Shown here: positions 50,157 to 64,000 of the stretch, one piece after another | Position numbering within the stretch: position 1 is the stretch's first letter | How the letters are laid out: each line of letters begins with the position of its first letter | Source: Alloalcanivorax marinus | Lineage (GTDB): Bacteria > Pseudomonadota > Gammaproteobacteria > Pseudomonadales > Alcanivoracaceae | Direction of reading: 5' to 3' | DNA: 64,000 nucleotides | NCBI RefSeq assembly: GCF_016906305.1 | Contig: NZ_JADDOL010000002.1 | Coordinates: 62,001 to 126,000, forward strand | Notes under the pieces: model-generated | Seen by the model: the letters and a program-made list of their open reading frames with translations, nothing else | The model's database searches: none | Told to the model about the DNA's origin: nothing | Translations under genes and position numbers: made by a program

Positions 50157-50371
50157 GTCTGCCTCCTGACCACCATGATTGATCATTAAACATACAGCCG
50201 TGATGTGACCATATCAAGTAGTCACACCAACATCAGCGTCGCTGCGGTGGATGTTCGTATCGTCCCCCACCGGTGTGGCGTAGGGTCCGAAACATCGAGG
50301 TTCTATGGCGCTTTTTAAGCCACCCGTTCGACCGAAAATTCGGATCCGAGCGGCCTGTCACGCGAAGTATC
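50157..50371. other. Toxin-antitoxin promoter and array-1 trailer
   Basis: 215 bases between the antitoxin and the last repeat of array 1. Expected to hold the antitoxin promoter (AT-rich near 50190-50220, including TGATCATTAAACATA). No further repeat copy is found to the left of 50372. Confidence 0.5.
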
Positions 50372-51899
50372 TTTCTTAACTGCCTACGCGGCAGCGAACG
50401 TGTGGGGCGCGCAGCCCCACGGTTTCGAGTTTTTCTTAGCTGCCTACGCGGCAGCGAACCCGATCCGTACATTCGGGCCGGCCGCCTTGATTTTCTTAGC
50501 TGCCTACGCGGCAGCGAACGAGGTACTGGCCGGCGGCATGGGCGCCTACGTTTTCTTAGCTGCCTACGCGGCAGCGAACTCCAGGTCGGTTTCCTCGATG
50601 GCTCTCCGCATTTTCTTAGCTGCCTACGCGGCAGCGAACGCGGCCGTCTCGGAATGGGTGCCCCGGTACGCTTTCTTAGCTGCCTACGCGGCAGCGAACC
50701 TTGCCCACGAACTGCCCGACCTGGGCGCACTTTTCTTAGCTGCCTACGCGGCAGCGAACGGGCCACCGGTCGGCTCCACGGTCACGTCGTGTTTCTTAGC
50801 TGCCTACGCGGCAGCGAACCTACAGAACGCCGACTTGGGCGTGATTTTGCTTTTCTTAGCTGCCTACGCGGCAGCGAACGAATTGCAGGGGCGTGTCCAG
50901 GCCCATTTCCATTTCTTAGCTGCCTACGCGGCAGCGAACCAGCCGGGCGAGCGATACCTGACCCGCTTTGTTTTCTTAGCTGCCTACGCGGCAGCGAACC
51001 GAATGATGACGATCCTGACATGGGTCATGCTTTTCTTAGCTGCCTACGCGGCAGCGAACGCAGACCGGCCAGACCCAGGAGCGCACCGAGTTTTCTTAGC
51101 TGCCTACGCGGCAGCGAACAGGAGGTGGTGCGCACCACCTTGGGCCACGAGTTTCTTAGCTGCCTACGCGGCAGCGAACACGGTGCCAATCGCAGCGGCG
51201 GCGAGCCCAACTTTCTTAGCTGCCTACGCGGCAGCGAACGTCTTGCGGGTCGCTGACGCCCTTCCCTTCACTTTCTTAGCTGCCTACGCGGCAGCGAACG
51301 CAGGGATCCCCATCCTGCAGGCGCTGGAGCATTTCTTAGCTGCCTACGCGGCAGCGAACTTGCCCGCCGGCCATCATTGACCCGGCAAACATTTCTTAGC
51401 TGCCTACGCGGCAGCGAACGTCGCCTTCACCGCCCGGCTCATTTTCGTGACTTTCTTAGCTGCCTACGCGGCAGCGAACTCATAGGTGCGGCATGCCTGG
51501 GCTGTGTCGGTTTTCTTAGCTGCCTACGCGGCAGCGAACAACGATCTCGTTTGGTCGCTGGAGCAGACGCATTTCTTAGCTGCCTACGCGGCAGCGAACG
51601 GTCTCCGCTTCCTGTTCGGTCTCGGATTCCTTTTCTTAGCTGCCTACGCGGCAGCGAACGCCCCGGGCGTCGATCTCCTGTTTCGCCTCTTTTTCTTAGC
51701 TGCCTACGCGGCAGCGAACCCGCCGCACTACTGAACTATGCGGACGACGAATTTCTTAGCTGCCTACGCGGCAGCGAACTTCCGCTCCTTGAGCTTTTCG
51801 ATAATCAGGTATTTCTTAGCTGCCTACGCGGCAGCGAACCTGACCCAGTAGGGCCGGGGTGCCGCGATCAGTTTCTTAGCTGCCTACGCGGCAGCGAAC
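50372..51899 (-). CRISPR. Type I-F CRISPR array 1: 26 repeats, 25 spacers
   Basis: 28-base repeats every 60 bases exactly, so all 25 spacers are 32 bases. On the transcribed (minus) strand the repeat starts GTTC, has stem GCTGCC / GGCAGC around loop GCGTA and ends in handle CTAAGAAA, the type I-F form. All repeats look identical except the left-most (50372-50399), which has one change (first base of the handle, C to T). That marks the left end as the old, leader-distal end; the leader is at the right next to cas6f. No two spacers look alike. Confidence 0.98.
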
Positions 51900-52029: not shown

Positions 52030-52593
52030 TCAGAACCAGGGGACCGTTGCTGTCGGACTCAGTCCGTAGGCGCTGAAAAGACCAGGAACAGCATCATCGC
52101 GCAGAGGGCCGTGTTCAACGAATAAAGCAAAGCGCTGCTCGGTAGTCGCGCTTCGCAGGGTGACAAACGGCAGGGACACCGCCTTTTCAATACTGTCGGG
52201 CAGCTGACGCCGGGCCTCTTCCTCGGAAACATTGTGGCGCCGACAATAACGTCGCCGCAGACGCGCCACATTGGTTTTCGGCTGTACACGACGCACCACG
52301 CGGTGCCGGGCGTCGTATGGCACGGGTTGTATGCTGCCCACGTGCAGATGGTCCGTCATACCACCAAGCCAGGTTCCACCCATCAGTTCCGCCAGACGAT
52401 CCTCGGTGCCATGGAGGCGCATTCTGGCCCCCAATGTGCGCGGCTTATGGCCGTGGGCGGGAAAGCTCACGCCGACATCCTCCACGCCGCCTCGAGCCAG
52501 CGCACGGTGTAACTTGCTGTATAGGGCGTCCAGCAGCACCTGCCGGCTGAACTCCGGATCTGGACGCACACTCATCTCCAAATACGCGTCCAT
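52030..52593 (-). CDS. cas6f: Cas6f (Csy4) crRNA-processing endonuclease
   Basis: 187 residues. Begins MDAYLEMSVRPDPEFSRQ; His29 in YSKLHRAL lines up with the catalytic His29 of Pseudomonas aeruginosa Csy4. An Arg-rich helix (VARLRRRYCRRHN) matches the part that sits in the hairpin major groove, and the C-terminal SLPFVTLRSATTEQRF and GLFSAYGLSP are family motifs. It cuts pre-crRNA at the base of the repeat hairpin and stays bound to the crRNA 3' end. Starts 3 bases after csy3. Confidence 0.96.
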   Translation of the reverse strand: MDAYLEMSVRPDPEFSRQVLLDALYSKLHRALARGGVEDVGVSFPAHGHKPRTLGARMRLHGTEDRLAELMGGTWLGGMTDHLHVGSIQPVPYDARHRVVRRVQPKTNVARLRRRYCRRHNVSEEEARRQLPDSIEKAVSLPFVTLRSATTEQRFALFVEHGPLRDDAVPGLFSAYGLSPTATVPWF

Positions 52594-52596
52594 ACC

Positions 52597-53628
52597 TCAC
52601 CCCGCATCCCCGAATACGCCACCACGAATCAGCGTCGCCATCACAAAATGCTGGTCAGTCTGGCTGGGGGTCTTATCCTTGAGGATCCAGTTATCCAGTA
52701 GTGAATAGAAATCCGCCTTTTGCTTCGGTTGCCGGTACGCCTTGCCCTGAGTGGTGACAGAGCCATAGGGCTCCACGGCAATCGGCCCCAAATCCTGGCC
52801 ACCTTCCGAGGGGTACCAGGTGTCAATGGTGCGCAGGGCATTACCCAGTTTTTGTGAGTGGATGCCGGCCACGTTGCCAATCTGATAGAGCGTTTTGCTC
52901 TTGTCACCACGGCCTCGCTCCAAGATCAGCTCTTGGGAGGGGAAAACCTCCTGCCCTGCCCCGACACGGGCAAAAGCCATCACCTCCAGCAAAGTGTGTT
53001 GTTCACCGGCCAAGCCGGAGGCAATACATTGTGCAAGTGCCTCAAGCCCGGTGCGTGACGCATCGGTGGGCTCGAAATCACGCAGCGAAAGAGCCAGTCC
53101 GTCGAAGGTCCACGAATCGGTGACCTGGCCTTCGCGGATACGACGTACCCGGACTTCCACCTGCTCGGCTCCAACGCGGTTGCGCCACAGAAAACGACCG
53201 TTGGCCAGGTTGTAGGCGTAGCGCTGCGCCAACGTGGCGAACCCCTGATTGGCCACATAGCCTTTGACCGTGGTCAGCAACTTATCCTGGTAATCCGCAT
53301 TGTTGCAGGCGGACGGCATCCCCGCTCCCCCCAATACCCGTAGGGTAAAACGAACCATCAAGGTGTCCGAGGTACTGGGTAATGCCGCCACATCAACGGT
53401 TTGGAGGTTGGGGTTTTCAATCTGCGCGTCGAGCTTGGCAGGGTCTTGATCCTTGGTCTTAAGGCGATTGGAAATGGTGCCGCGCACCGATTTCTCGCGC
53501 ACTTCAACGGCGGGCCAGCTCTCGAAATCGTCACGATGCCCCCACTGTCCGGCAAAGAACAGCGCATCGGATGGGTCCAGCTTGCGCTCGAAGGCGAGCA
53601 CGGAGGCGGTTTTAAGGGCGGTAGCCAT
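52597..53628 (-). CDS. csy3: Cas7f (Csy3), backbone subunit
   Basis: 343 residues, start with AAGGAG 7 bases upstream. Starts [25 protein letters not shown]; family motifs include [15 protein letters not shown] and [18 protein letters not shown]. Six copies form the filament along the spacer in the Csy (Cascade) complex. Between csy2 and cas6f as in all I-F1 operons. Confidence 0.96.
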
Positions 53629-53658
53629 GGCGAAACTCCTTCTGTTTTGTTTTATCCG

Positions 53659-54654
53659 TTAAGAGGGTTGGTAGTCATTGCGAAGACGATATAGTCCGGC
53701 ATCCGTGTCGCTGTGGGCATACCAGAGCATGTCTTGGGCACGGTTGAGGCGATGAGGACTGATCCATTGCCCCACAGAGTACAGGCCTTCCACAAAGCGG
53801 AAGGGCGTGACCGCATCGCGGGCATTAGCGACACTGCCCGCCTCATAACACGGCGAAAGCGCCCCGTAGCCCACGGGAATCGGCACCACCCAGCCCGGTG
53901 ACTTTCGGACCTGCCAGCTGAAGCTCGGTCGGTCCTGTTCATTACTGTCGGCGCCAGCTTTCTTCCTATCACTGGCTTCCGGAGCGTAGTGCAGGGTAAG
54001 CCGAGAACAATCCAGCCAGGCGTCCAGCTCCGTAGCGGCCGGGTCTTCCTTTCGCAGTTCGGCAAGGCTCTGAGCAAGCAGATCGTCACGGCCCACCAGC
54101 ACAAAGCCGGGCAACCATCCTCGACGCAAATTCAGGAACTGCTTATGCCGCTCCCCGGGGTCCTCATCCAGAACCACCAGTTGCGGCCGCTGCCAGGACT
54201 TGCGCTGGCCCGGAAGCGCCGGCATCACACTCCCTCCTGCCAGGCGCATACCGGACACTATGCGGGCCAGCTCCGCCGCGACTTCCTCGCGGCGTCCAGG
54301 GTCGGCCGAGCAGAGCGCGCCCTCGGCGCCCAGTACCAAAGTGACGTCCAAATGCACCCGACCTTCCTCCACAATGGCGGCCGTGGAGCCATCCTTACCC
54401 ACCGGATTGCGAGTGAGCAGGAAACGCCGGGTAAAGCCCGTCTGATTAACCTGAGCATCGAAACCGTGGCAAATCACGCCGACCCCAGTGAAAATCAGGT
54501 CGAGACCGGCGGTCGGCAGCTTGCGCTCCAAAGCCTGCATGGCCCCCACGAAGGCGCTCATGGCGGGAAAGCCCCAGGTCATCTGGCTGGAAATGGCATT
54601 GGCATTCTGAATACGCAGGTGCGGCAGCACCAACAAAGCTTTTGGCTCAGACAT
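53659..54654 (-). CDS. csy2: Cas5f (Csy2)
   Basis: 331 residues from the ATG at 54654 (8-base overlap with csy1); a longer frame is open but is csy1 shadow. Begins MSEPKALLVLPHLRIQNANA; typical Csy2 features are the AISSQMTWGFPAM segment and IPVGYGALSPCYEAG near the C-terminus. It caps the crRNA 5' handle together with Csy1. Confidence 0.95.
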   Translation of the reverse strand: MSEPKALLVLPHLRIQNANAISSQMTWGFPAMSAFVGAMQALERKLPTAGLDLIFTGVGVICHGFDAQVNQTGFTRRFLLTRNPVGKDGSTAAIVEEGRVHLDVTLVLGAEGALCSADPGRREEVAAELARIVSGMRLAGGSVMPALPGQRKSWQRPQLVVLDEDPGERHKQFLNLRRGWLPGFVLVGRDDLLAQSLAELRKEDPAATELDAWLDCSRLTLHYAPEASDRKKAGADSNEQDRPSFSWQVRKSPGWVVPIPVGYGALSPCYEAGSVANARDAVTPFRFVEGLYSVGQWISPHRLNRAQDMLWYAHSDTDAGLYRLRNDYQPS

Positions 54655-55948
54655 GGGGCAACACCTCCTGCAGGGCATCCAGCTTAGCCTTGAGTGCGCC
54701 TGTCCATTGCGCGTGTTCCGGGTCACCCATCGGTAGCCGCCGGCTTAGCTCCCGGTTTAACCAATTGGCAAAGCGGTGACGAACTTGATCTGGCCAGTCT
54801 TCGCTTTCGCGCTTTGCCTGGAAAACGGCATCGTAATCAGCCCGGTGCGGGTCCAGCCAAAGCGTCTCGGCTTCGTTCAAGCGGCATTGGGAATCGGCGC
54901 TCCAACCAGGCTCGAGCACACTCAGCTCGCCGGCAAACAGCACCAGCTCATCAATAAGGGCATCCACGTATCCATCCCGCCGTTTGCGTGTCGCCACGAC
55001 CGGGTCCGGCCCCTGCTCAAGGAACCGGGCCAGTTGGGATATCAACCATCGCACCTCCCGGCGGCGCCCAAAGCGAGGGAACACGGAATCAGTGCGCAAT
55101 GGCGCCGGGACCTCAGGGCTTTCCCATATCGGCGGCAAGGAAGCGAGCAAATAGTTGTTGCCTGCGCGTTCGCTGTTGAGCTGAGAGATGTTCTGAGGTT
55201 TGGTGCCGCCCAGCTTTTGCACCGCCAGGTTCGGGTAATCCCGGTACCCCCAATCACAAGGCTTGCTCTCGCGCCGTGCTTTGCGCGCTTCCTTGGCGGC
55301 TTCACCAAAGCGATCCTCATTGATGGCCAGAAACACCCGGTGTGCCAGGGAGGTGGCGTACAACGGCGCGAGCAGATGGAAGTGGTCATCACGGGTCGGG
55401 TCTTCGCCCACAAGCCAATACACTTGCTTGGCCTTGGTATGGCTCGCGGCACCGGTACGCTCGGCCACCAGGCCGGCAAAAGCCTCCACCCATGCCCGAG
55501 CCTGGTCCGCGTCGTCGCTCAGCGCCTGCCGCAACTCAGCGTCATCCTCAAGCACCCGCTCCAGAACCGACCGGCCCTCATGTTCTACCTTAAGGAACTT
55601 ATAGACATCCAGAGCGGCGGCATTGCCAACCACATCCGCCTGAAAATCAGAGCCCATTACTCCACTGCTTACCAACCCCGGATGCACCAAATCCCCGGGC
55701 TCCACATAGAGGTTTGAACCCTTGGCGTCCGGGTGGATCGGTTTCAGTGAATGGGTAACAAGCTGGATCTGGCTGGCACGGGAGGCGGCGCTTTCAACCC
55801 AGTGCTCAAACTGAAACTGAGCACGCAGCGCTTCCCGCTTGGGGTCGTCGTCGGCGAGTTTTTCGAGCTTGCCCTGCAGGCGCTCGCTCAGAAACTGCTC
55901 CATAGCCGCACGCAAGCCGCGTACTGACGGGTCATTCAGGATTTCCAT
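54647..55948 (-). CDS. csy1: Cas8f (Csy1), large subunit
   Basis: 433 residues, start preceded by AGAAGGAG. Family features: VTHSLKPIHPDAKGSN, HPGLVSSGVMGSDFQADVVGNAAALDVYKFL (quoted in parts: SSGVMGSDF and DVVGNAAALDVYKFL), KPQNISQLNSERAG. In the I-F complex this subunit reads the CC protospacer-adjacent motif and with Csy2 holds the handle. Starts 28 bases after the cas2-3 stop. Confidence 0.95.
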   Translation of the reverse strand: MEILNDPSVRGLRAAMEQFLSERLQGKLEKLADDDPKREALRAQFQFEHWVESAASRASQIQLVTHSLKPIHPDAKGSNLYVEPGDLVHPGLVSSGVMGSDFQADVVGNAAALDVYKFLKVEHEGRSVLERVLEDDAELRQALSDDADQARAWVEAFAGLVAERTGAASHTKAKQVYWLVGEDPTRDDHFHLLAPLYATSLAHRVFLAINEDRFGEAAKEARKARRESKPCDWGYRDYPNLAVQKLGGTKPQNISQLNSERAGNNYLLASLPPIWESPEVPAPLRTDSVFPRFGRRREVRWLISQLARFLEQGPDPVVATRKRRDGYVDALIDELVLFAGELSVLEPGWSADSQCRLNEAETLWLDPHRADYDAVFQAKRESEDWPDQVRHRFANWLNRELSRRLPMGDPEHAQWTGALKAKLDALQEVLPHV

Positions 55949-55976: not shown

Positions 55977-58900
55977 TCATCGCTGTCTTACAAACCCCAG
56001 GGCGGGATGAAAACGCCACCCGTGCTCACTGTCCGGCAGAGTGACAGTCCCAAAACGTCGGGCACAGCTCTCCAGCTCCTGCCCCAGATCGTCGGCTAAC
56101 GCCGCCAGAGCTTCGAGATAGTCGGTATCGCCCCAGGGGCGGATGCGCGGCGAAGCGACCGCCTCATCCGGAATGCGGTGGTGCAAGCTGGTGTCCACAT
56201 CCACATAAAGGGGCAGGCGTCGCCCCGGTTCTTTACGAATCTGCTGAAGCCCGTATTGTTCGCCGCCCTCGTCCGGCATCAGCACCAGGTCAACGCGCTT
56301 GGTATTGTCGTTTCTGAAAGGCTGTTGCTGCGGCAGGACCGCGGTCAGCGAAGCACGAGGCAGCTCGTGCCAGGTATAAGCACCAAGACGAGGCGCCGAG
56401 GCGGACTGGCGCCGGATTCGCTCACGGCGGCTAAGGTTGCCGACATCCGCTTCTTCCTCGGGCGCCGACAACGGCGCCACCATGCATTCCTTCAGGCGCG
56501 CGTGCTCCAGGTCCACCAGGTTCTCACGGGGGCGGAGGCTGCGCCGGACGAGGATGCGGGGTCGGGCGTCGATCACCTCACGCTCTTCAGCACGCAACAA
56601 TTGCTCAAGACGGTGATTACTCAGTAACCAGTCTCCGGGCCCTTCGAAGCCCGGCCGGCAAAAGGCGGGGTCCCCCGGGCTCGTCAGGTGACGGATATTG
56701 GTGTCCAGTAACACCAGATTGGTTGCGCTACAGCCGCCCTCGCGGTGACGACGCACGCGGCCCGCCAGTTGAATCATGGACCGCATGGAGGAAGGTTCCA
56801 CTATAGCCCAGTCGTAATCGTGGTCTCGCCCAACCTCGGTGACCGGCGAGCCCAAAACCAGGAATATCTGGTTCTGCTCCGGGTGCGCATCCAAAAGTTT
56901 ACGGATGTCGGGCAGCTGAAACACCGCCAATGGATCCCTGCGGTTCAGGGCCTGGTCCAACCGCGCTTCGATGGCGGACCGGATCAACAGGGGGTATTGC
57001 GAGTGATAAACGCAAAGATGGATGCACTGCCCCTGCTCCGCTCCCTGCCGGTAGAGCGCTAGCGCCACCTCCACCAATGGTTCGATATTAGCCATGCGGA
57101 CCAAACCGAAGCTCACTCGCTTTGCACTCGTCGGGTCCAGAGTATGGTGGTTGGCGTGCAGCTCTTTGGCATGGACCAGAATACGGTTAGCGAACGTCTC
57201 AACTACCTCCTCGCGACGGCTGCCGGACACCGCAAGAGGCGCCAAGCGTGCCCGGCGCCGAACCGGCGCCTTGCCAAGCCTCGCCGCGCGCCGTTCAGCG
57301 AACTCCTGGTGGGACGAAACGAACAGCTCCCTATCCGGACAATCCTGATGCGCCTGACCGTGCTCATCGAACCAGGCGCAGCAGATATCAAGCGCCGCAC
57401 CGGGTTCTCCCCGATTACGCTGGTAATGGGATCGGCCGTCCCGATAAGCCTCGTACAGCCCCTGAACCAAGGACGGCGGCAAGGTAGCGGACGACAAAAG
57501 CACGCGCGAGCCGAGCAGACCCGCCCAGTGCACCAGGCGAGTCAGCGCGGGCAGGTCGTCCAGATCGAAGTCGTCCGGTTCATCAAGGACAAGGTCACCA
57601 CTCATCAAGCGCAGCATGGGGGCGATCTGGCGGCCGCCGCGCTGGCTCTCCGTCGCCGGTGTCAGATGGTCAACGGTGCAGACCAGTATCGGCGCGGCGA
57701 GCAGCGCTTTTACCATGGGGTCATGGGCCACCCGGCCAAGCAGGGGATGGTTATCCAGATTTCCGTCAAAGCGGACATAGCTGTCCTCGGGCAACAGGCT
57801 TTGCACGGAAGCAGAACCACTGCGCTCTGCCAGCTCCTGGTGATATTCAAACAAGGTCCGGCTGGCGCTACCCCCCACTCGAACGGCCAGGTCGTCCTCA
57901 CTCAGACCCAGCGTTTCCCGGTAGGCCTTGCCGGTTTGCAAGGTGAGCGTGCGCAATCCAAGAGCAATGGAAAAGCGAGCGCCGGCCTCCGGGTCCGCCA
58001 GGGCGTAAAGAATGCGCGCATTGGCCAATGTTTTTCCGCAACCAGTAGACGCCATGTTGATTCCAAAAAAGCCGTGCCGACGGGCCCGTTCACGCAGCCC
58101 CTCCGCCAGATCATAGGCGCGGTCTTGCCAACGGAAACGGGGGTCGGCGCTGCGCCTTCGGAACGCTTGGTGGCGGGCAAGACGCGGCAAATGCCGCTCC
58201 ATATTGGGTAACGCCCGGCTCACCGCCCGGGAATGCTTCTCCACCCCAAGCAGGTGCTCGTCCAGAGGCTGATTCGGCTCACCGGTCTCACGCAGAGTGT
58301 TGGCCAATAACGGGTAGCCCGCTTGGCCACGGACACGATGGGCGGGTTCACTGAGACTGGAGTAATAATGATCCGAGGTCATCAGCACCAAACGAGCAAG
58401 GTGCATGACGTAGGGATTATCCAACGGAGCCGTCATGTCGCAGCACTGCCGCAGTTGCTTTGCCAAGCCGGCGGCCCGCGACCGCCATAGCTCCGTAGTC
58501 ACGGGCAAGCCGTGCGGGAACTGCCAATAGGGCCGGATCTGCACCGCGTCCTGACTGTCGCAGACTTCGTTCCAGGCGGCGGTAATGATGCCTGGTAAGC
58601 CTGATAACTGGCGCGCCTGAAAACCAGACACCCTCGCGCCCAGCCGGGGAGCACCTCCCCCTACAGACCGATCCCCCGGCATTACCGGCAGACGGTGGTG
58701 GGTAACGATCAGCCAGCCAACGGCCGCGGCCAGCGGTGGCAGATGAGCGAACGGCGTGGAGTCACGGGCATCAAGGCCGTCCTTGTTGAGACGGTTCAGC
58801 CACGCCGCGTCGTCAGCCGCGGCCGGGTTTTCAAGACGGGCCAGCCAGGTGGCGTCCTCATCCTCCCCGACAAAAGCCTCGAACAAGCGCAGGGAGACCC

Positions 58901-59351
58901 ATTCGTGCCGATAAAGATTACGCTCCGGTTTCGCACCGGGTTTAAGTTTACGCTGGAAACTGGCACAGGCTTTGCCAAGGTCGTGCATGAGCGCCGCCAG
59001 CGCGGCTAGCAGGGTGATGTACTCACCGGTGTGCCAGTCATTCTCATCGCCCCGCCGCAAAATGTCTCGACGGGTGGTGTTGGTGGGCACCGCGCCCTGA
59101 GCGTTGAACCTGCTGGCGTCACCTACAATCCACAGCAACTCGCTATGATCCCGACCGCGAATCCAATGACAAGACACAGCGGTATTCTTTCGGGCAGTCT
59201 TGCGTAACAGGCGACGCAATGTATCCAGACCCTGCTTGGTGATTGGCGTCTGCCAGGTACGCTCGCCCCTGCGCTCAGCAAATTGGTCGAGAATGCGCCG
59301 GGTTTCCTTTAATGCTCTCTTGTCACACTGTGAGACCAGCAGTACGTTCAT
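55977..59351 (-). CDS. cas3f: Cas2-Cas3 fusion (type I-F nuclease-helicase)
   Basis: 1124 residues from the ATG at 59351, in an ATGA overlap with cas1; 30 further in-frame codons upstream lie inside cas1. Residues 1-~95 are Cas2-like (MNVLLVSQCDKRALKETRR). HD nuclease motif at H123-D124 (AALMHDLGKACASF), His149 (YRHEW). Helicase: INMASTGCGKTLANARIL (Walker A), GDLVLDEPDDFDL (DExx), and IQLAGRVRRHREGG (motif VI). Degrades targeted DNA and, with Cas1, acquires spacers. Key residues look intact. Confidence 0.97.
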   Translation of the reverse strand: MNVLLVSQCDKRALKETRRILDQFAERRGERTWQTPITKQGLDTLRRLLRKTARKNTAVSCHWIRGRDHSELLWIVGDASRFNAQGAVPTNTTRRDILRRGDENDWHTGEYITLLAALAALMHDLGKACASFQRKLKPGAKPERNLYRHEWVSLRLFEAFVGEDEDATWLARLENPAAADDAAWLNRLNKDGLDARDSTPFAHLPPLAAAVGWLIVTHHRLPVMPGDRSVGGGAPRLGARVSGFQARQLSGLPGIITAAWNEVCDSQDAVQIRPYWQFPHGLPVTTELWRSRAAGLAKQLRQCCDMTAPLDNPYVMHLARLVLMTSDHYYSSLSEPAHRVRGQAGYPLLANTLRETGEPNQPLDEHLLGVEKHSRAVSRALPNMERHLPRLARHQAFRRRSADPRFRWQDRAYDLAEGLRERARRHGFFGINMASTGCGKTLANARILYALADPEAGARFSIALGLRTLTLQTGKAYRETLGLSEDDLAVRVGGSASRTLFEYHQELAERSGSASVQSLLPEDSYVRFDGNLDNHPLLGRVAHDPMVKALLAAPILVCTVDHLTPATESQRGGRQIAPMLRLMSGDLVLDEPDDFDLDDLPALTRLVHWAGLLGSRVLLSSATLPPSLVQGLYEAYRDGRSHYQRNRGEPGAALDICCAWFDEHGQAHQDCPDRELFVSSHQEFAERRAARLGKAPVRRRARLAPLAVSGSRREEVVETFANRILVHAKELHANHHTLDPTSAKRVSFGLVRMANIEPLVEVALALYRQGAEQGQCIHLCVYHSQYPLLIRSAIEARLDQALNRRDPLAVFQLPDIRKLLDAHPEQNQIFLVLGSPVTEVGRDHDYDWAIVEPSSMRSMIQLAGRVRRHREGGCSATNLVLLDTNIRHLTSPGDPAFCRPGFEGPGDWLLSNHRLEQLLRAEEREVIDARPRILVRRSLRPRENLVDLEHARLKECMVAPLSAPEEEADVGNLSRRERIRRQSASAPRLGAYTWHELPRASLTAVLPQQQPFRNDNTKRVDLVLMPDEGGEQYGLQQIRKEPGRRLPLYVDVDTSLHHRIPDEAVASPRIRPWGDTDYLEALAALADDLGQELESCARRFGTVTLPDSEHGWRFHPALGFVRQR

Positions 59352-60325
59352 GGCGTATCGCTCGCCTGACGCATGGCTACACTCTTGACGGTGTCGATCA
59401 TGAAATCCAGTGCTTCCGTACGGGCCAAGGACTCGATACATGCTTGCCGAAAAGCCTGTTCATCGTCACCCCGCATGGCACTCAGGAAGGCCTGAGGCAG
59501 AATGACCGCATCCTTAATCAAATCCGCGACATCGAATACCAGCCCTCCCCGGCGCGTTTTGCCGTGTAATATGGCCAAGCCGTGGGGCAGGCCCAGCACC
59601 CAAGTGGCGGTGGCCGCCAACCCATAGGCCAGATAATTACCGTGGTCCAGAAAACGATTGGCCGGATCCGTCCCCGTGCCTCTTTTTGCACGCCGAAAAG
59701 ACCCGTAATCAACCGCATCACAAGCCAGCTTGAACAAACGTTTCGTGAGACGTGCCTCCACGGTCAGCAATTCCATGGTGGTCGTACTGGTCTCGATATC
59801 CTGGCCACCCTGCTCGAGCGCCGATATCAGCGCGGCCTCGATCACCTGGAAACCGGCTTCATGCAATGATCTTGAGCCCAGCCAATGCTCACGGATACGC
59901 CCCAACCTGGCATACTGGAAATACTTGGCGGCAGCCAGCCTCTTTACGTCATCAAACCAGAAATGCACCCAGGCCTGCAGGTATTCAGTGGGTCGATATT
60001 CGCTTTGCGGGCTGAACCAGGCCACCTCTATATCCACTTCATTGGCGCTGAACAAAGGCGTCCCTCCGCCCCCGCAAAAACCCACCAACACCCCCGCCTT
60101 CGCCATTTCCCGCATGGCGGCCTGCGTTACCGAGGTCCCCGTTCCAAGCAACACGGTGGTGGTATTGGCGATAGGGATATTCCAGTAAAGGGATTGCCGC
60201 CCCTGGTCGGTGACATACTCCACGCGGCCACCGTTGACCAACAGCCGGCAGTGCTGCAAGTAATACACGTTGGCTCGCTTGGAATGCAGAATCGTCTTGA
60301 GATCCGCTGGCGACAAGTCTTCCAT
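59348..60325 (-). CDS. cas1: Cas1 integrase, type I-F
   Basis: 325 residues from the ATG at 60325, which has GGAGG 7 bases upstream (an ATG 8 codons earlier would place the ribosome site inside the gene). Begins MEDLSPADLKTILHSKRANV. Metal-site residues expected for Cas1 are present: Glu in LLTVEARLTKRLF, His in GLAILHGKTRRGG and Asp in LVFDVADLIKDAV. Inserts new spacers together with the Cas2 part of Cas2-3, to which it is translationally coupled. Confidence 0.97.
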   Translation of the reverse strand: MEDLSPADLKTILHSKRANVYYLQHCRLLVNGGRVEYVTDQGRQSLYWNIPIANTTTVLLGTGTSVTQAAMREMAKAGVLVGFCGGGGTPLFSANEVDIEVAWFSPQSEYRPTEYLQAWVHFWFDDVKRLAAAKYFQYARLGRIREHWLGSRSLHEAGFQVIEAALISALEQGGQDIETSTTTMELLTVEARLTKRLFKLACDAVDYGSFRRAKRGTGTDPANRFLDHGNYLAYGLAATATWVLGLPHGLAILHGKTRRGGLVFDVADLIKDAVILPQAFLSAMRGDDEQAFRQACIESLARTEALDFMIDTVKSVAMRQASDTP

Positions 60326-60402
60326 AAACGCCCCTCCAAAAGGCGGCACCCTTGGTCATGCTCACCCGGTTGTAACACGGGGGCTGCCCGGGGAATGCCA
60401 CC

Positions 60403-60420
60403 ACTGATCTTACGATCAGT
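60403..60420. promoter_or_regulatory. Dyad ACTGATC-TTAC-GATCAGT upstream of cas1
   Basis: Perfect 7-base arms with a 4-base centre, in the 135-base gap between the WYL regulator stop and cas1. On the minus strand TAAGAT overlaps the dyad and could be a -10 box for cas1. It is not followed by a T-run on the minus strand, so it is more likely an operator than a terminator. A dimeric regulator such as the adjacent WYL protein is a natural candidate. Confidence 0.5.
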
Positions 60421-60460: not shown

Positions 60461-61423
60461 CTAGCGGTAAACCGCCAGCGCAGCCGCCAGACGCTTCCGA
60501 ACACTCAGGCGAAGCGCCTCCGGCGCCAACACCTCCGCGTCCGGGCCATGGCGCAATACCTCCATGGTCAGTTCCGTCGGGTCTGAATACGGTACCCAAA
60601 GGTGGTACCCATCATCCCGCCACTCTCCATGCTGCTTTGCGTGCCAGTGTTCGTCTGCCACCCACCGTGCCGCCCACGGGGAAAAGCGCAGATGAGCCTG
60701 GGCCGACGGCGCGCCGGAAAAAAGGCCGAAACTACCCTCCATAAAACGGTCCAGACGGTCGGCAGGCATCGCCCGAGCCTCACCCTGCTTCGGCTCAAGT
60801 TCAATAATGCGATCCAGGGAAAAAAGCCGCAGACCACCCGCTTTTTCACAATCGGCCAGCAGATACCAATTATGGCGGTAATGCAAAAGCCTCTGCGGAT
60901 GCACCAGCCGCTCGCCACCATGGTCGCGACTGCGTGGCTGATAGCGGATACGCAGGCACCGACCCGCCAGAGTGGCATCGGCAACACAAGTAAAAACGTG
61001 GTCGGGGACCTTTCGTTGTTGCGTTGACTGCAACCTGACCTTATCACTCAAACTTGCCGCCTGAGTTCCGGCGTCACCCAGCAAGCCCTGAATCCTCCGG
61101 CGTATCGGTGCAAGGCGATGGCTCATCAAACCAGGGTGGACGGCTTCCAGAAGTTGCTCACAAGCCAGCAAAGCATATAACTCACTGGCGTTCATCCAGA
61201 AGCCGGGTAATTCAAACTGTGGGGCATCAGGGTCATAATGATGGCCGTTCCGCTCGCGGTCGTAGACGATGGGCGCGCCGAAAAAGTCACGCAAATACTG
61301 AAAATCCTGGGTGACCGTATTCCGTGTTACCCCCAGCTCTTCGGTAAAGCGCCGCATCGGTACCGGGCAGCGAGCATGGCGCAACAGACCATGAATGCGA
61401 TAAAAACGCTCAAGGCGGGTCAC
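60461..61423 (-). CDS. WYL-domain transcriptional regulator next to cas1
   Basis: 320 residues from a GTG at 61423 with AGGGA 6 bases upstream. N-terminal winged helix-turn-helix (LERFYRIHGLLRHAR, RRFTEELGVTRNTVTQDFQYL), then a WYL domain: LRIRYQPRSRDHGGERLVHP, and the signature in LHYRHNWYLLADCEKAGG, then a C-terminal WCX-like region. WYL proteins bind nucleotide-like or nucleic-acid ligands and often control defence islands (for example BrxR, CapW). Same strand as and 135 bases before cas1, so likely a cas regulator. The ligand is unknown. Confidence 0.9.
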   Translation of the reverse strand: MTRLERFYRIHGLLRHARCPVPMRRFTEELGVTRNTVTQDFQYLRDFFGAPIVYDRERNGHHYDPDAPQFELPGFWMNASELYALLACEQLLEAVHPGLMSHRLAPIRRRIQGLLGDAGTQAASLSDKVRLQSTQQRKVPDHVFTCVADATLAGRCLRIRYQPRSRDHGGERLVHPQRLLHYRHNWYLLADCEKAGGLRLFSLDRIIELEPKQGEARAMPADRLDRFMEGSFGLFSGAPSAQAHLRFSPWAARWVADEHWHAKQHGEWRDDGYHLWVPYSDPTELTMEVLRHGPDAEVLAPEALRLSVRKRLAAALAVYR

Positions 61424-61441: not shown

Positions 61442-61484
61442 TTATTATTCACCGAAGACTATATCTTTGTGACGAGTATCACAA
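61442..61484 (-). promoter_or_regulatory. CRP/Vfr-type site TTGTGA-N6-TCACAA and promoter of the WYL regulator
   Basis: Perfect palindrome at 61467-61484, matching the CRP core TGTGA-N6-TCACA. With TAATAA (61447-61442) as -10, the site would be centred near -41, the class II activating position; with TATAGT (61463-61458) as -10 it would overlap the -35 and repress. The regulator GTG is at 61423. The remaining 61485-61693 contains no gene. Confidence 0.65.
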
Positions 61485-61693
61485 TTCCATTTTCACAACG
61501 CCCCCACTGAGGCTGCGCCAATATTGCCTTCAATCATGGCCTGAATAGGGAGAGACCTATCTATACTACGTTTTATTTACTTCCCTCCGCGCCGGCCGAC
61601 GCTGCCAATTCCTGCACTGATAGAGCCCTTAAAATAGGCACCTTTCCGCTTTTGAGCTTTTGGCAGCATAATTGATGATGCTTTCGCTCCTAG

Positions 61694-64000
61694 CTTGACG
61701 GCTGCCTATATGGCAGCAATCCGTTGGCTCCCGCTCCATTCCGGATCCCCGGCTTTCTTAGCTGCCTATGCGGCAGCAAACAGCGGATTTGTCGATTTCT
61801 AAGTTTCCGAAATTTTCTTAGCTGCCTATGCGGCAGCAAACAGCACCTCCTGGTCCTCGATCTGGCCCTTGTCTTTCTTAGCTGCCTATGCGGCAGCAAA
61901 CCCCTGGGGTGAAGGCCGCCGGCTGCGGCCGGTTTTCTTAGCTGCCTATGCGGCAGCAAACGCTACGGTACCGAATTGCGCTGCTACGACAACTTTCTTA
62001 GCTGCCTATGCGGCAGCAAACCCGGGGCCTCAACAGTTACGCTATTGCATATTTTTCTTAGCTGCCTATGCGGCAGCAAACCAGAGCCAACCCCAGGCGG
62101 GCTAACCGCCAGCTTTCTTAGCTGCCTATGCGGCAGCAAACGGTGTCCCGGTCAACGACGACGAGGAGTGCGATTTCTTAGCTGCCTATGCGGCAGCAAA
62201 CGCTGCTCGCGCAGGATCCCTACCGGGCCCGCTTTTCTTAGCTGCCTATGCGGCAGCAAACCGCTCAACGCGGATGGCAGCCCGGGCGTCCCATTTCTTA
62301 GCTGCCTATGCGGCAGCAAACTCCTGGTCCTCGAACAGGAACTCTTCGATGCCTTTCTTAGCTGCCTATGCGGCAGCAAACGGCGCTCATGGGCATTGAT
62401 TGTGAGTGTGCCCTTTCTTAGCTGCCTATGCGGCAGCAAACACGGACTGGTAACGGATTCCGAGCGCGTCGGCTTTCTTAGCTGCCTATGCGGCAGCAAA
62501 CTCCAGGAGACCATGACGGCGGTGGCTGAGATTTTTCTTAGCTGCCTATGCGGCAGCAAACGTGGACCCCACCACGGGCGCCGGCGTGGCGGTGTTTCTT
62601 AGCTGCCTATGCGGCAGCAAACTGGGCTGGGTCCGGCACGATCACGGCGCCCACTTTCTTAGCTGCCTATGCGGCAGCAAACCGCACCTCCGCCTCCGGC
62701 TCCGCGCTCCGCTTTTTCTTAGCTGCCTATGCGGCAGCAAACATGGTGGTGTTATCGTACCCCGCGAACAAAGGTTTCTTAGCTGCCTATGCGGCAGCAA
62801 ACGTGCGGGTGCCGTTGCGCAGCTCGACCACGCTTTTCTTAGCTGCCTATGCGGCAGCAAACGGCTATGACTGGACGCCGCTGCACTATCGGCTTTTCTT
62901 AGCTGCCTATGCGGCAGCAAACTTCAGCGCCGTATGCTCGGCGCCCTCGTCGTCTTTCTTAGCTGCCTATGCGGCAGCAAACATTGCGGCGACCACGGCG
63001 AGAACGACGGCGTATTTCTTAGCTGCCTATGCGGCAGCAAACATCTTCCAGTGCGCCCAGGTCGGGCATGTGGTTTTCTTAGCTGCCTATGCGGCAGCAA
63101 ACTGCAGGATTCCGCGCCCGTTCCTAAGGATGATTTTCTTAGCTGCCTATGCGGCAGCAAACCGCCACCAGTGCATCGTGGTCGAGCGCGTGGATTTCTT
63201 AGCTGCCTATGCGGCAGCAAACGGGGTTATTCGTCAGGTCCTTTGCCAGTGCTGTTTCTTAGCTGCCTATGCGGCAGCAAACACAACCGCCACTCTGGCC
63301 GCCAAGTTCCCGCTTTTCTTAGCTGCCTATGCGGCAGCAAACGCGACTTGGCGCTATCTGTGCCGTATCTCGATTTTCTTAGCTGCCTATGCGGCAGCAA
63401 ACGCCCGGGCCGATCCGGCACTGATCCAGCCAGATTTCTTAGCTGCCTATGCGGCAGCAAACACACTCACTGAATCCTCACGGAGTGGCCGACATTTCTT
63501 AGCTGCCTATGCGGCAGCAAACAATCTGATGGCGCGCATCCGTACGATTAAACCTTTCTTAGCTGCCTATGCGGCAGCAAACGTCGTAGCCCTCTGCTGT
63601 CTCCGCCGGCCAGTCTTTCTTAGCTGCCTATGCGGCAGCAAACTGGCGGCGCAGGAATGAGATCGACTCGGGCCTTTTCTTAGCTGCCTATGCGGCAGCA
63701 AACAACGGTTTTGACGACCTGCCGCACTTTGAGCTTTTCTTAGCTGCCTATGCGGCAGCAAACGAAACGGGCTTCCATGTCGTCGTAGTCCTCGTTTTCT
63801 TAGCTGCCTATGCGGCAGCAAACTCGGAGTAGACCCGATTTTCCGCGCGCCACGATTTCTTAGCTGCCTATGCGGCAGCAAACGCGCGGAGCTTCTTGTG
63901 GACGCCGCCGCTGGATTTCTTAGCTGCCTATGCGGCAGCAAACTCGTTCGGCCTGGGCCCGGGCTTCTTCCTTGCTTTCTTAGCTGCCTATGCGGCAGCA
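61694..64000 (-). CRISPR. Type I-F CRISPR array 2: 39 repeats (first degenerate, last cut by window), 38 spacers
   Basis: Repeat on the transcribed (minus) strand starts GTTT, stem GCTGCC / GGCAGC, loop GCATA, handle CTAAGAAA; it differs from array 1 at two positions. Regular repeats start at 61754 and recur every 60 bases, with two 61-base steps (62534 to 62595 and 63555 to 63616), so two spacers are 33 bases and the rest 32. A decayed repeat at 61694-61721 (20 of 28 bases kept) is the leader-distal end. The last repeat starts at 63976 and leaves the window, so the leader and newest spacers are outside. Confidence 0.98.

Follow-up and report, generated by a model that had tools for sequence, protein, structure and literature searches.

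A conserved Vfr-type palindrome before the WYL regulator gene of CRISPR-Cas loci in Alcanivoracaceae

A type I-F locus with a palindrome before its WYL gene

The window (the whole 64-kb stretch of DNA that was analysed) has, on its minus strand, a type I-F cas operon that is complete and is preceded by a gene for a WYL/WCX regulator of 320 amino acids (60461..61423, minus strand). The WYL and WCX domains of this protein are above the cut-off (PF13280, E 1.1e-18; PF25583, E 1e-15), and HTH_11, at 22.3 bits, is just under the 25-bit cut-off. On the same strand follow cas1 (59348..60349; PF01867, E 1.7e-13), for which comparison with L003, a named relative, makes the ATG at 60325 the probable true start, the type I-F cas2-cas3 gene (55977..59441; PF21384 and Cas3 models), and csy1, csy2, csy3 and csy4 (52030..55948; PF09611, PF09614, PF09615 and PF09618). 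Two type I-F arrays are present, at 50233-51899 and 61755-64000, and their repeats differ slightly (TTTCTTAGCTGCCTACGCGGCAGCGAAC and TTTCTTAGCTGCCTATGCGGCAGCAAAC). In the upstream array, on the minus strand, 38 repeats were counted and a degenerate last repeat lies near 61700. The leader of this array falls just past the right edge of the window, so the array is transcribed towards the WYL gene.

Between the upstream array and the WYL gene, at 61467..61484 on the minus strand, lies the palindrome TTGTGATACTCGTCACAA, 44 nt 5' of the GTG start codon at 61423. Its match to the Vfr/CRP consensus is complete, at 10/10 core positions and 12/12 extended positions. The sequence, the coordinates and the distance to the WYL start given in the initial annotation are all exact, and both -10 candidates to which it alluded are present on the minus strand: TATAGT (61458..61463; P1) and AATAAT (61444..61449; P2). 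The 64-kb window contains no second perfect TTGTGA-N6-TCACAA match. With up to two mismatches allowed, it contains one other match, with two mismatches; shuffled sequences average 0.82 per window. Across the 4.05 Mb genome we found 6 perfect TTGTGA-N6-TCACAA sites and 9 TGTGA-N6-TCACA core sites, versus 0 in both cases for the reversed control pattern. An extra TTGTGA half-site (61493-61498, minus strand) occurs 14 nt 5' of the palindrome in the window; none was seen in the relatives.

Conservation of the site and a Vfr ortholog

We used the WYL protein to search 46 Alcanivoracaceae genomes, the family label resting on the named relatives L001-L004 and on family grouping, and 11 of them carry the gene or a truncated remnant. 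The WYL protein falls to 49% identity across the family loci. All 11 loci have TGTGA-N6-TCAC(A/G), with at most one core mismatch, 61-88 nt 5' of the start codon. Based on the 11 aligned promoters, mean identity is 0.93 and 0.91 in the half-sites, 0.39 in the 6-nt spacer, and 0.31 and 0.35 in the flanks. Judged from the alignment, half-sites conserved amid a diverged spacer and flanks are the pattern of a selected dimer-binding site. The initial annotation had let its proposal depend on close relatives that keep the locus; the palindrome is present in all of them. At L133:7014-7352, a truncated WYL gene has no cas genes nearby and its promoter still carries a perfect Vfr palindrome; this remnant is probably the scar of a lost CRISPR locus.

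Outside the family, the 150 nt upstream of each of 75 WYL relatives were searched, and a site with fewer than two core mismatches was found in 0/75. Vfr itself is encoded by 7 of 10 sampled WYL-carrying genomes of other groups (Marinobacter and relatives, 79-81% identity), in which the palindrome is absent. Given that the site is missing despite the presence of Vfr, the link is specific to Alcanivoracaceae.

One protein of the genome, L087, is a Vfr ortholog, with P. aeruginosa Vfr as its best solved relative (7few, E 1.4e-104) and E. coli CRP as the next. It has the same recognition helix as P. aeruginosa Vfr, CSREMVGRVLK. An ortholog is found in 45 of the 46 family genomes. Other Crp/Fnr proteins were considered as the binding factor: 10 cNMP-domain hits represent several proteins, and the CRP-type helix, sought with a simple search pattern, was matched in L087 only. 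The other palindromes of the genome precede flhDC (two sites), BcsQ, Flp pilin, GGDEF, radical SAM and two family-less genes. In E. coli, flhDC is a standard example of CRP control; here its upstream region (L149:1420-1546) has two perfect Vfr-type sites 30 bp apart and one weaker site. Based on its conservation, on a Vfr ortholog with the same helix, and on the occurrence of the same motif before flhDC and other genes, the palindrome is very probably a Vfr/CRP site. We consider it highly likely that Vfr binds it and affects the WYL gene. The site read initially as one for CRP (or Vfr) thus holds, and the protein is narrowed to Vfr, the CRP ortholog.

Carbon status, which the initial annotation took as the input, is unsupported, since P. 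aeruginosa Vfr reportedly has no role in catabolite repression (PMC9563714) and since the other sites of this genome lie before genes for motility, pili, cellulose and c-di-GMP. As a set, the Vfr-type sites point to a role in motility and surface life and not in carbon use.

Anatomy of the WYL and cas promoters

P1 occupies a position homologous to TAGAGT, TAAAGT, TACATT or TTGAAT in the relatives, where P1-type -10 elements lie 33-57 nt 5' of the start codon (34 in the window). If P1 is used, the palindrome lies over the -35/spacer region. At 10 of the 11 loci the P1-type -10 stands 17 nt after a -35-like hexamer inside the left half-site, with the palindrome at about -25.5 to -27.5; the window is the sole locus with an off spacing, 15 nt. 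At L130, L131 and L132 the conserved block stops right after the P1-type -10, with a variable distance from there to the start codon, and this arrangement points to a transcription start just after that -10.

Activation of the WYL gene by Vfr from the downstream P2, class II-like as with CRP at Pectobacterium cas1, is in our estimate the less likely reading. P2, with the right half-site as its -35, is the best match to the sigma-70 consensus in the region, four Alloalcanivorax promoters have AATAAA at the exact class II spacing, and the known effects on I-F cas are activating, by Vfr in P. aeruginosa (PMC9563714) and by CRP in Pectobacterium (PMC4499141). However, the better P2 hexamers, such as that of the window (GTCACA-N18-AATAAT), would put the palindrome centre near -37.5 and not at the class II position of -41.5, and the hexamers at exact spacing do not end in the T that is conserved at the last position of a -10. 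P2 is weak or absent, and off the class II register, in most relatives, and L130, L131 and L132 keep the site without it. In E. coli, CRP sites at -31 to 23 without TTAC and GAGC repress (PMC5772556). We put repression first based on these analogues and on the 10 of 11 loci that combine P1 with a 17-nt-spaced -35 in the half-site: in the comparison, repression of WYL by Vfr bound near -26 comes out somewhat ahead of class II activation. Taken alone, the promoter of the window is ambiguous as to sign. Of the two actions first proposed, activation from about -41 or repression by covering the -35, the comparison thus favours the second, and the window's best sigma-70 match allows the first.

A separate conserved element lies in the spacer between the WYL and cas genes. 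The proposed WYL box of the window, CAGTGGTGGCATTCCCCGGGCAGC-N8-TACAAC (60369..60412, minus strand), is conserved in WYL-cas spacers with the consensus CAGTGGTGCA...GGGGCAGT, then 8 nt, then TANNNT, and is common to I-F, I-E and I-C loci of Alcanivorax, Marinobacter and halomonads. The box was first spotted by eye in the spacers and then scored with each training locus left out; the held-out loci L001, L002, L016, L017 and L019 score 24.7-42.5 bits. The window's own box scores low, at 3.8 bits, a value equalled in 0 of 100 shuffles, and its core is the only zero-mismatch match in the genome. On scoring, no convincing box was obtained at L024, L026, L028, L036 and L045. At L001 and L002 the box is directly 5' of the type I-E cas3, about 0.8 kb from WYL. 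This position beside cas3 despite the gap indicates that the box goes with cas, not with the end of WYL. The extra DNA between WYL and cas3 at these two type I-E loci (about 0.8 kb, L001:6964-7800) contains no clear gene. In betaproteobacterial loci the WYL box is replaced by a related one, GGCTCA-N6-TGAG. In the spacers of L022, L025, L030 and L040 (Thioalkalivibrio and betaproteobacterial) an inverted repeat similar to GGCTCA-N5/6-TGAGCC takes the place of the WYL box, and it is possibly an alternative form of the operator.

If TANNNT is the -10, the box spans about -42 to -21. In 16 cas promoters the -10 matches at 3-4 of 6 positions and the -35 mostly at 1-2 of 6. The Caulobacter activator DriD (PMC12340889) shares the wHTH-WYL-WCX layout of the regulator and likewise binds across the -35, with a constant spacing to weak -10 elements; the cas-promoter anatomy also resembles that of PafBC (PMC11804915). 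Unlike DriD, which acts at several DNA-damage promoters, the WYL regulator here appears to serve a single cas promoter. At the position aligned with the PafBC arginine that helps to bind ssDNA, it apparently has a serine. Structures of WYL domains other than PafBC match it weakly (E 0.0005-0.002). Based on this sequence evidence, the WYL protein probably controls cas directly, like DriD. From the promoter anatomy, with a box over the -35 and a weak -10 as in DriD, we infer that it would activate cas. The sign may be reversed, as BrxR, CapW (PMC9122601, PMC9122588) and Sll7009 (PMC4012209), which are WYL regulators likewise found with varied defence systems or a CRISPR-Cas locus, are by contrast described as repressors.

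Two further arrangements were rejected. Autoregulation of WYL through the cas-type box does not fit, because scoring gave no such box in any WYL promoter (0.9 bits at most). A direct Vfr site at the cas promoter was sought in the first 0.9 kb after WYL, where the best match has at least two core mismatches at all family loci.

A proposed Vfr-WYL-cas circuit and its rivals

In the mechanism that we propose, Vfr-cAMP would bind the palindrome in the WYL promoter, most likely covering the -35/spacer region and lowering transcription of this regulator, which acts locally. The WYL protein would in turn bind the WYL box, which lies across the -35 position at the cas promoter, and would most likely activate cas in a DriD-like manner, bringing polymerase to a promoter whose -10 is poor and which has no -35. 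The net circuit would run from Vfr-cAMP to WYL to cas. The chances that this full chain operates with these signs, repression and then activation, seem to us about even. Of the two-step circuit of the initial annotation, the Vfr site at the WYL gene stands, the step from WYL to cas gains support from the separate conserved box, and the carbon input drops out.

WYL and cas1 are co-oriented and about 135 nt apart in the window, and the two could form one transcript that the Vfr site controls as a unit, with no second step. This we regard as improbable, given a conserved promoter-like box before cas in 16/16 aligned loci, one that lies beside cas3 also at a distance of about 0.8 kb from WYL; read-through from WYL into cas may nevertheless contribute. 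BrxR and other WYL regulators have inverted repeats close to their own genes as binding sites. Against this general background, and with a palindrome that always accompanies the WYL gene in the family, the palindrome might be an autoregulatory operator of WYL itself, or the operator of another factor. Such an operator is more doubtful still, because the motif is also found before flhDC and other genes that lie at a distance from every WYL gene, the palindrome matches the Vfr consensus and is unlike the cas-promoter box, and WYL orthologs of other families are without it. A chance palindrome without function is hardly conceivable: about one match per window is expected at up to two mismatches, but this match is perfect, and half-sites conserved within diverged flanks at 11 loci, versus 0/75 elsewhere, rule it out.

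The proposed circuit, in which Vfr would repress WYL and WYL would activate cas, differs from the known cases in where the site lies. The I-F cas1 system of P. aeruginosa (PMC9563714) has the same regulator, the same consensus (tgnga-N6-tcaca) and the same CRISPR subtype, but its site is in the cas1 promoter and activating, whereas here the perfect match precedes WYL and repression is more likely. In Pectobacterium atrosepticum (PMC4499141) a CRP-type site, used by CRP-cAMP, is likewise tied to the I-F locus, but as a class II site at -41.5 of cas1 matching at 8/10 positions, compared with 10/10 at the WYL gene here. A WYL gene upstream of I-F genes has been mentioned in Marinomonas (PMC8523701). 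Vfr/CRP is thus already known to act at cas promoters, and WYL proteins are known to regulate defence systems (PMC9122601, PMC4012209). Here a global cAMP regulator appears to control a small WYL regulator dedicated to the locus; among open-access full texts we found no report of CRP or Vfr acting on a CRISPR-associated WYL regulator. We also know of no Vfr input to BrxR, CapW or Sll7009.

Possible exchange of cassettes behind the WYL module

The unit of Vfr site and WYL gene is not confined to one cassette type. It precedes type I-F genes in the window, L003, L004 and L127, type I-E genes at L001, L002 and L129, and II-C-like cas9-cas1-cas2 genes at L130 (3863-8455) and L131 (4656-9040), where Cas9, Cas1 and Cas2 models match and the II-C assignment reflects gene content and protein length, not a subtype model. 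At L132 the contig edge falls inside the WYL gene. L127/L155 is very probably the genome of Alcanivorax dieselolei B-5: its array, in which 63 repeats were counted, covers the crRNA positions given for that strain in a dRNA-seq study (PMC9788540). Type I and type II systems of Alcanivoracaceae are thus served by one family of WYL regulators.

Protein identities do not run in parallel along these loci. L001 and L129 share 82% identity in cas3 and 55% in WYL, L001 and L010 share 83% and 58%, and the WYL proteins of the window and L001, which belong to different subtypes, are 77% identical. These disagreements, taken from pairwise comparisons and not from protein trees, fit a regulator that stays in place while the cassettes behind it are exchanged. 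They may instead reflect a WYL gene that evolves faster, or whole-locus transfers with subsequent loss. On balance we lean towards a resident module in Alcanivoracaceae (Vfr site, WYL gene and WYL box) behind which cassettes have been exchanged between subtypes and even between classes (I-F, I-E, II-C), with regulation belonging to the host lineage rather than to the effector.

How mobile CRISPR-Cas cassettes get wired into host physiology is an open question. If the resident module is real, a swapped-in cassette would come under existing control at once, which is testable, and Vfr would be predicted to lower CRISPR in these bacteria, as opposed to raising it in Pseudomonas. In Alcanivoracaceae, the cAMP network appears to feed into a regulatory module that persists longer than the immune system under its control.
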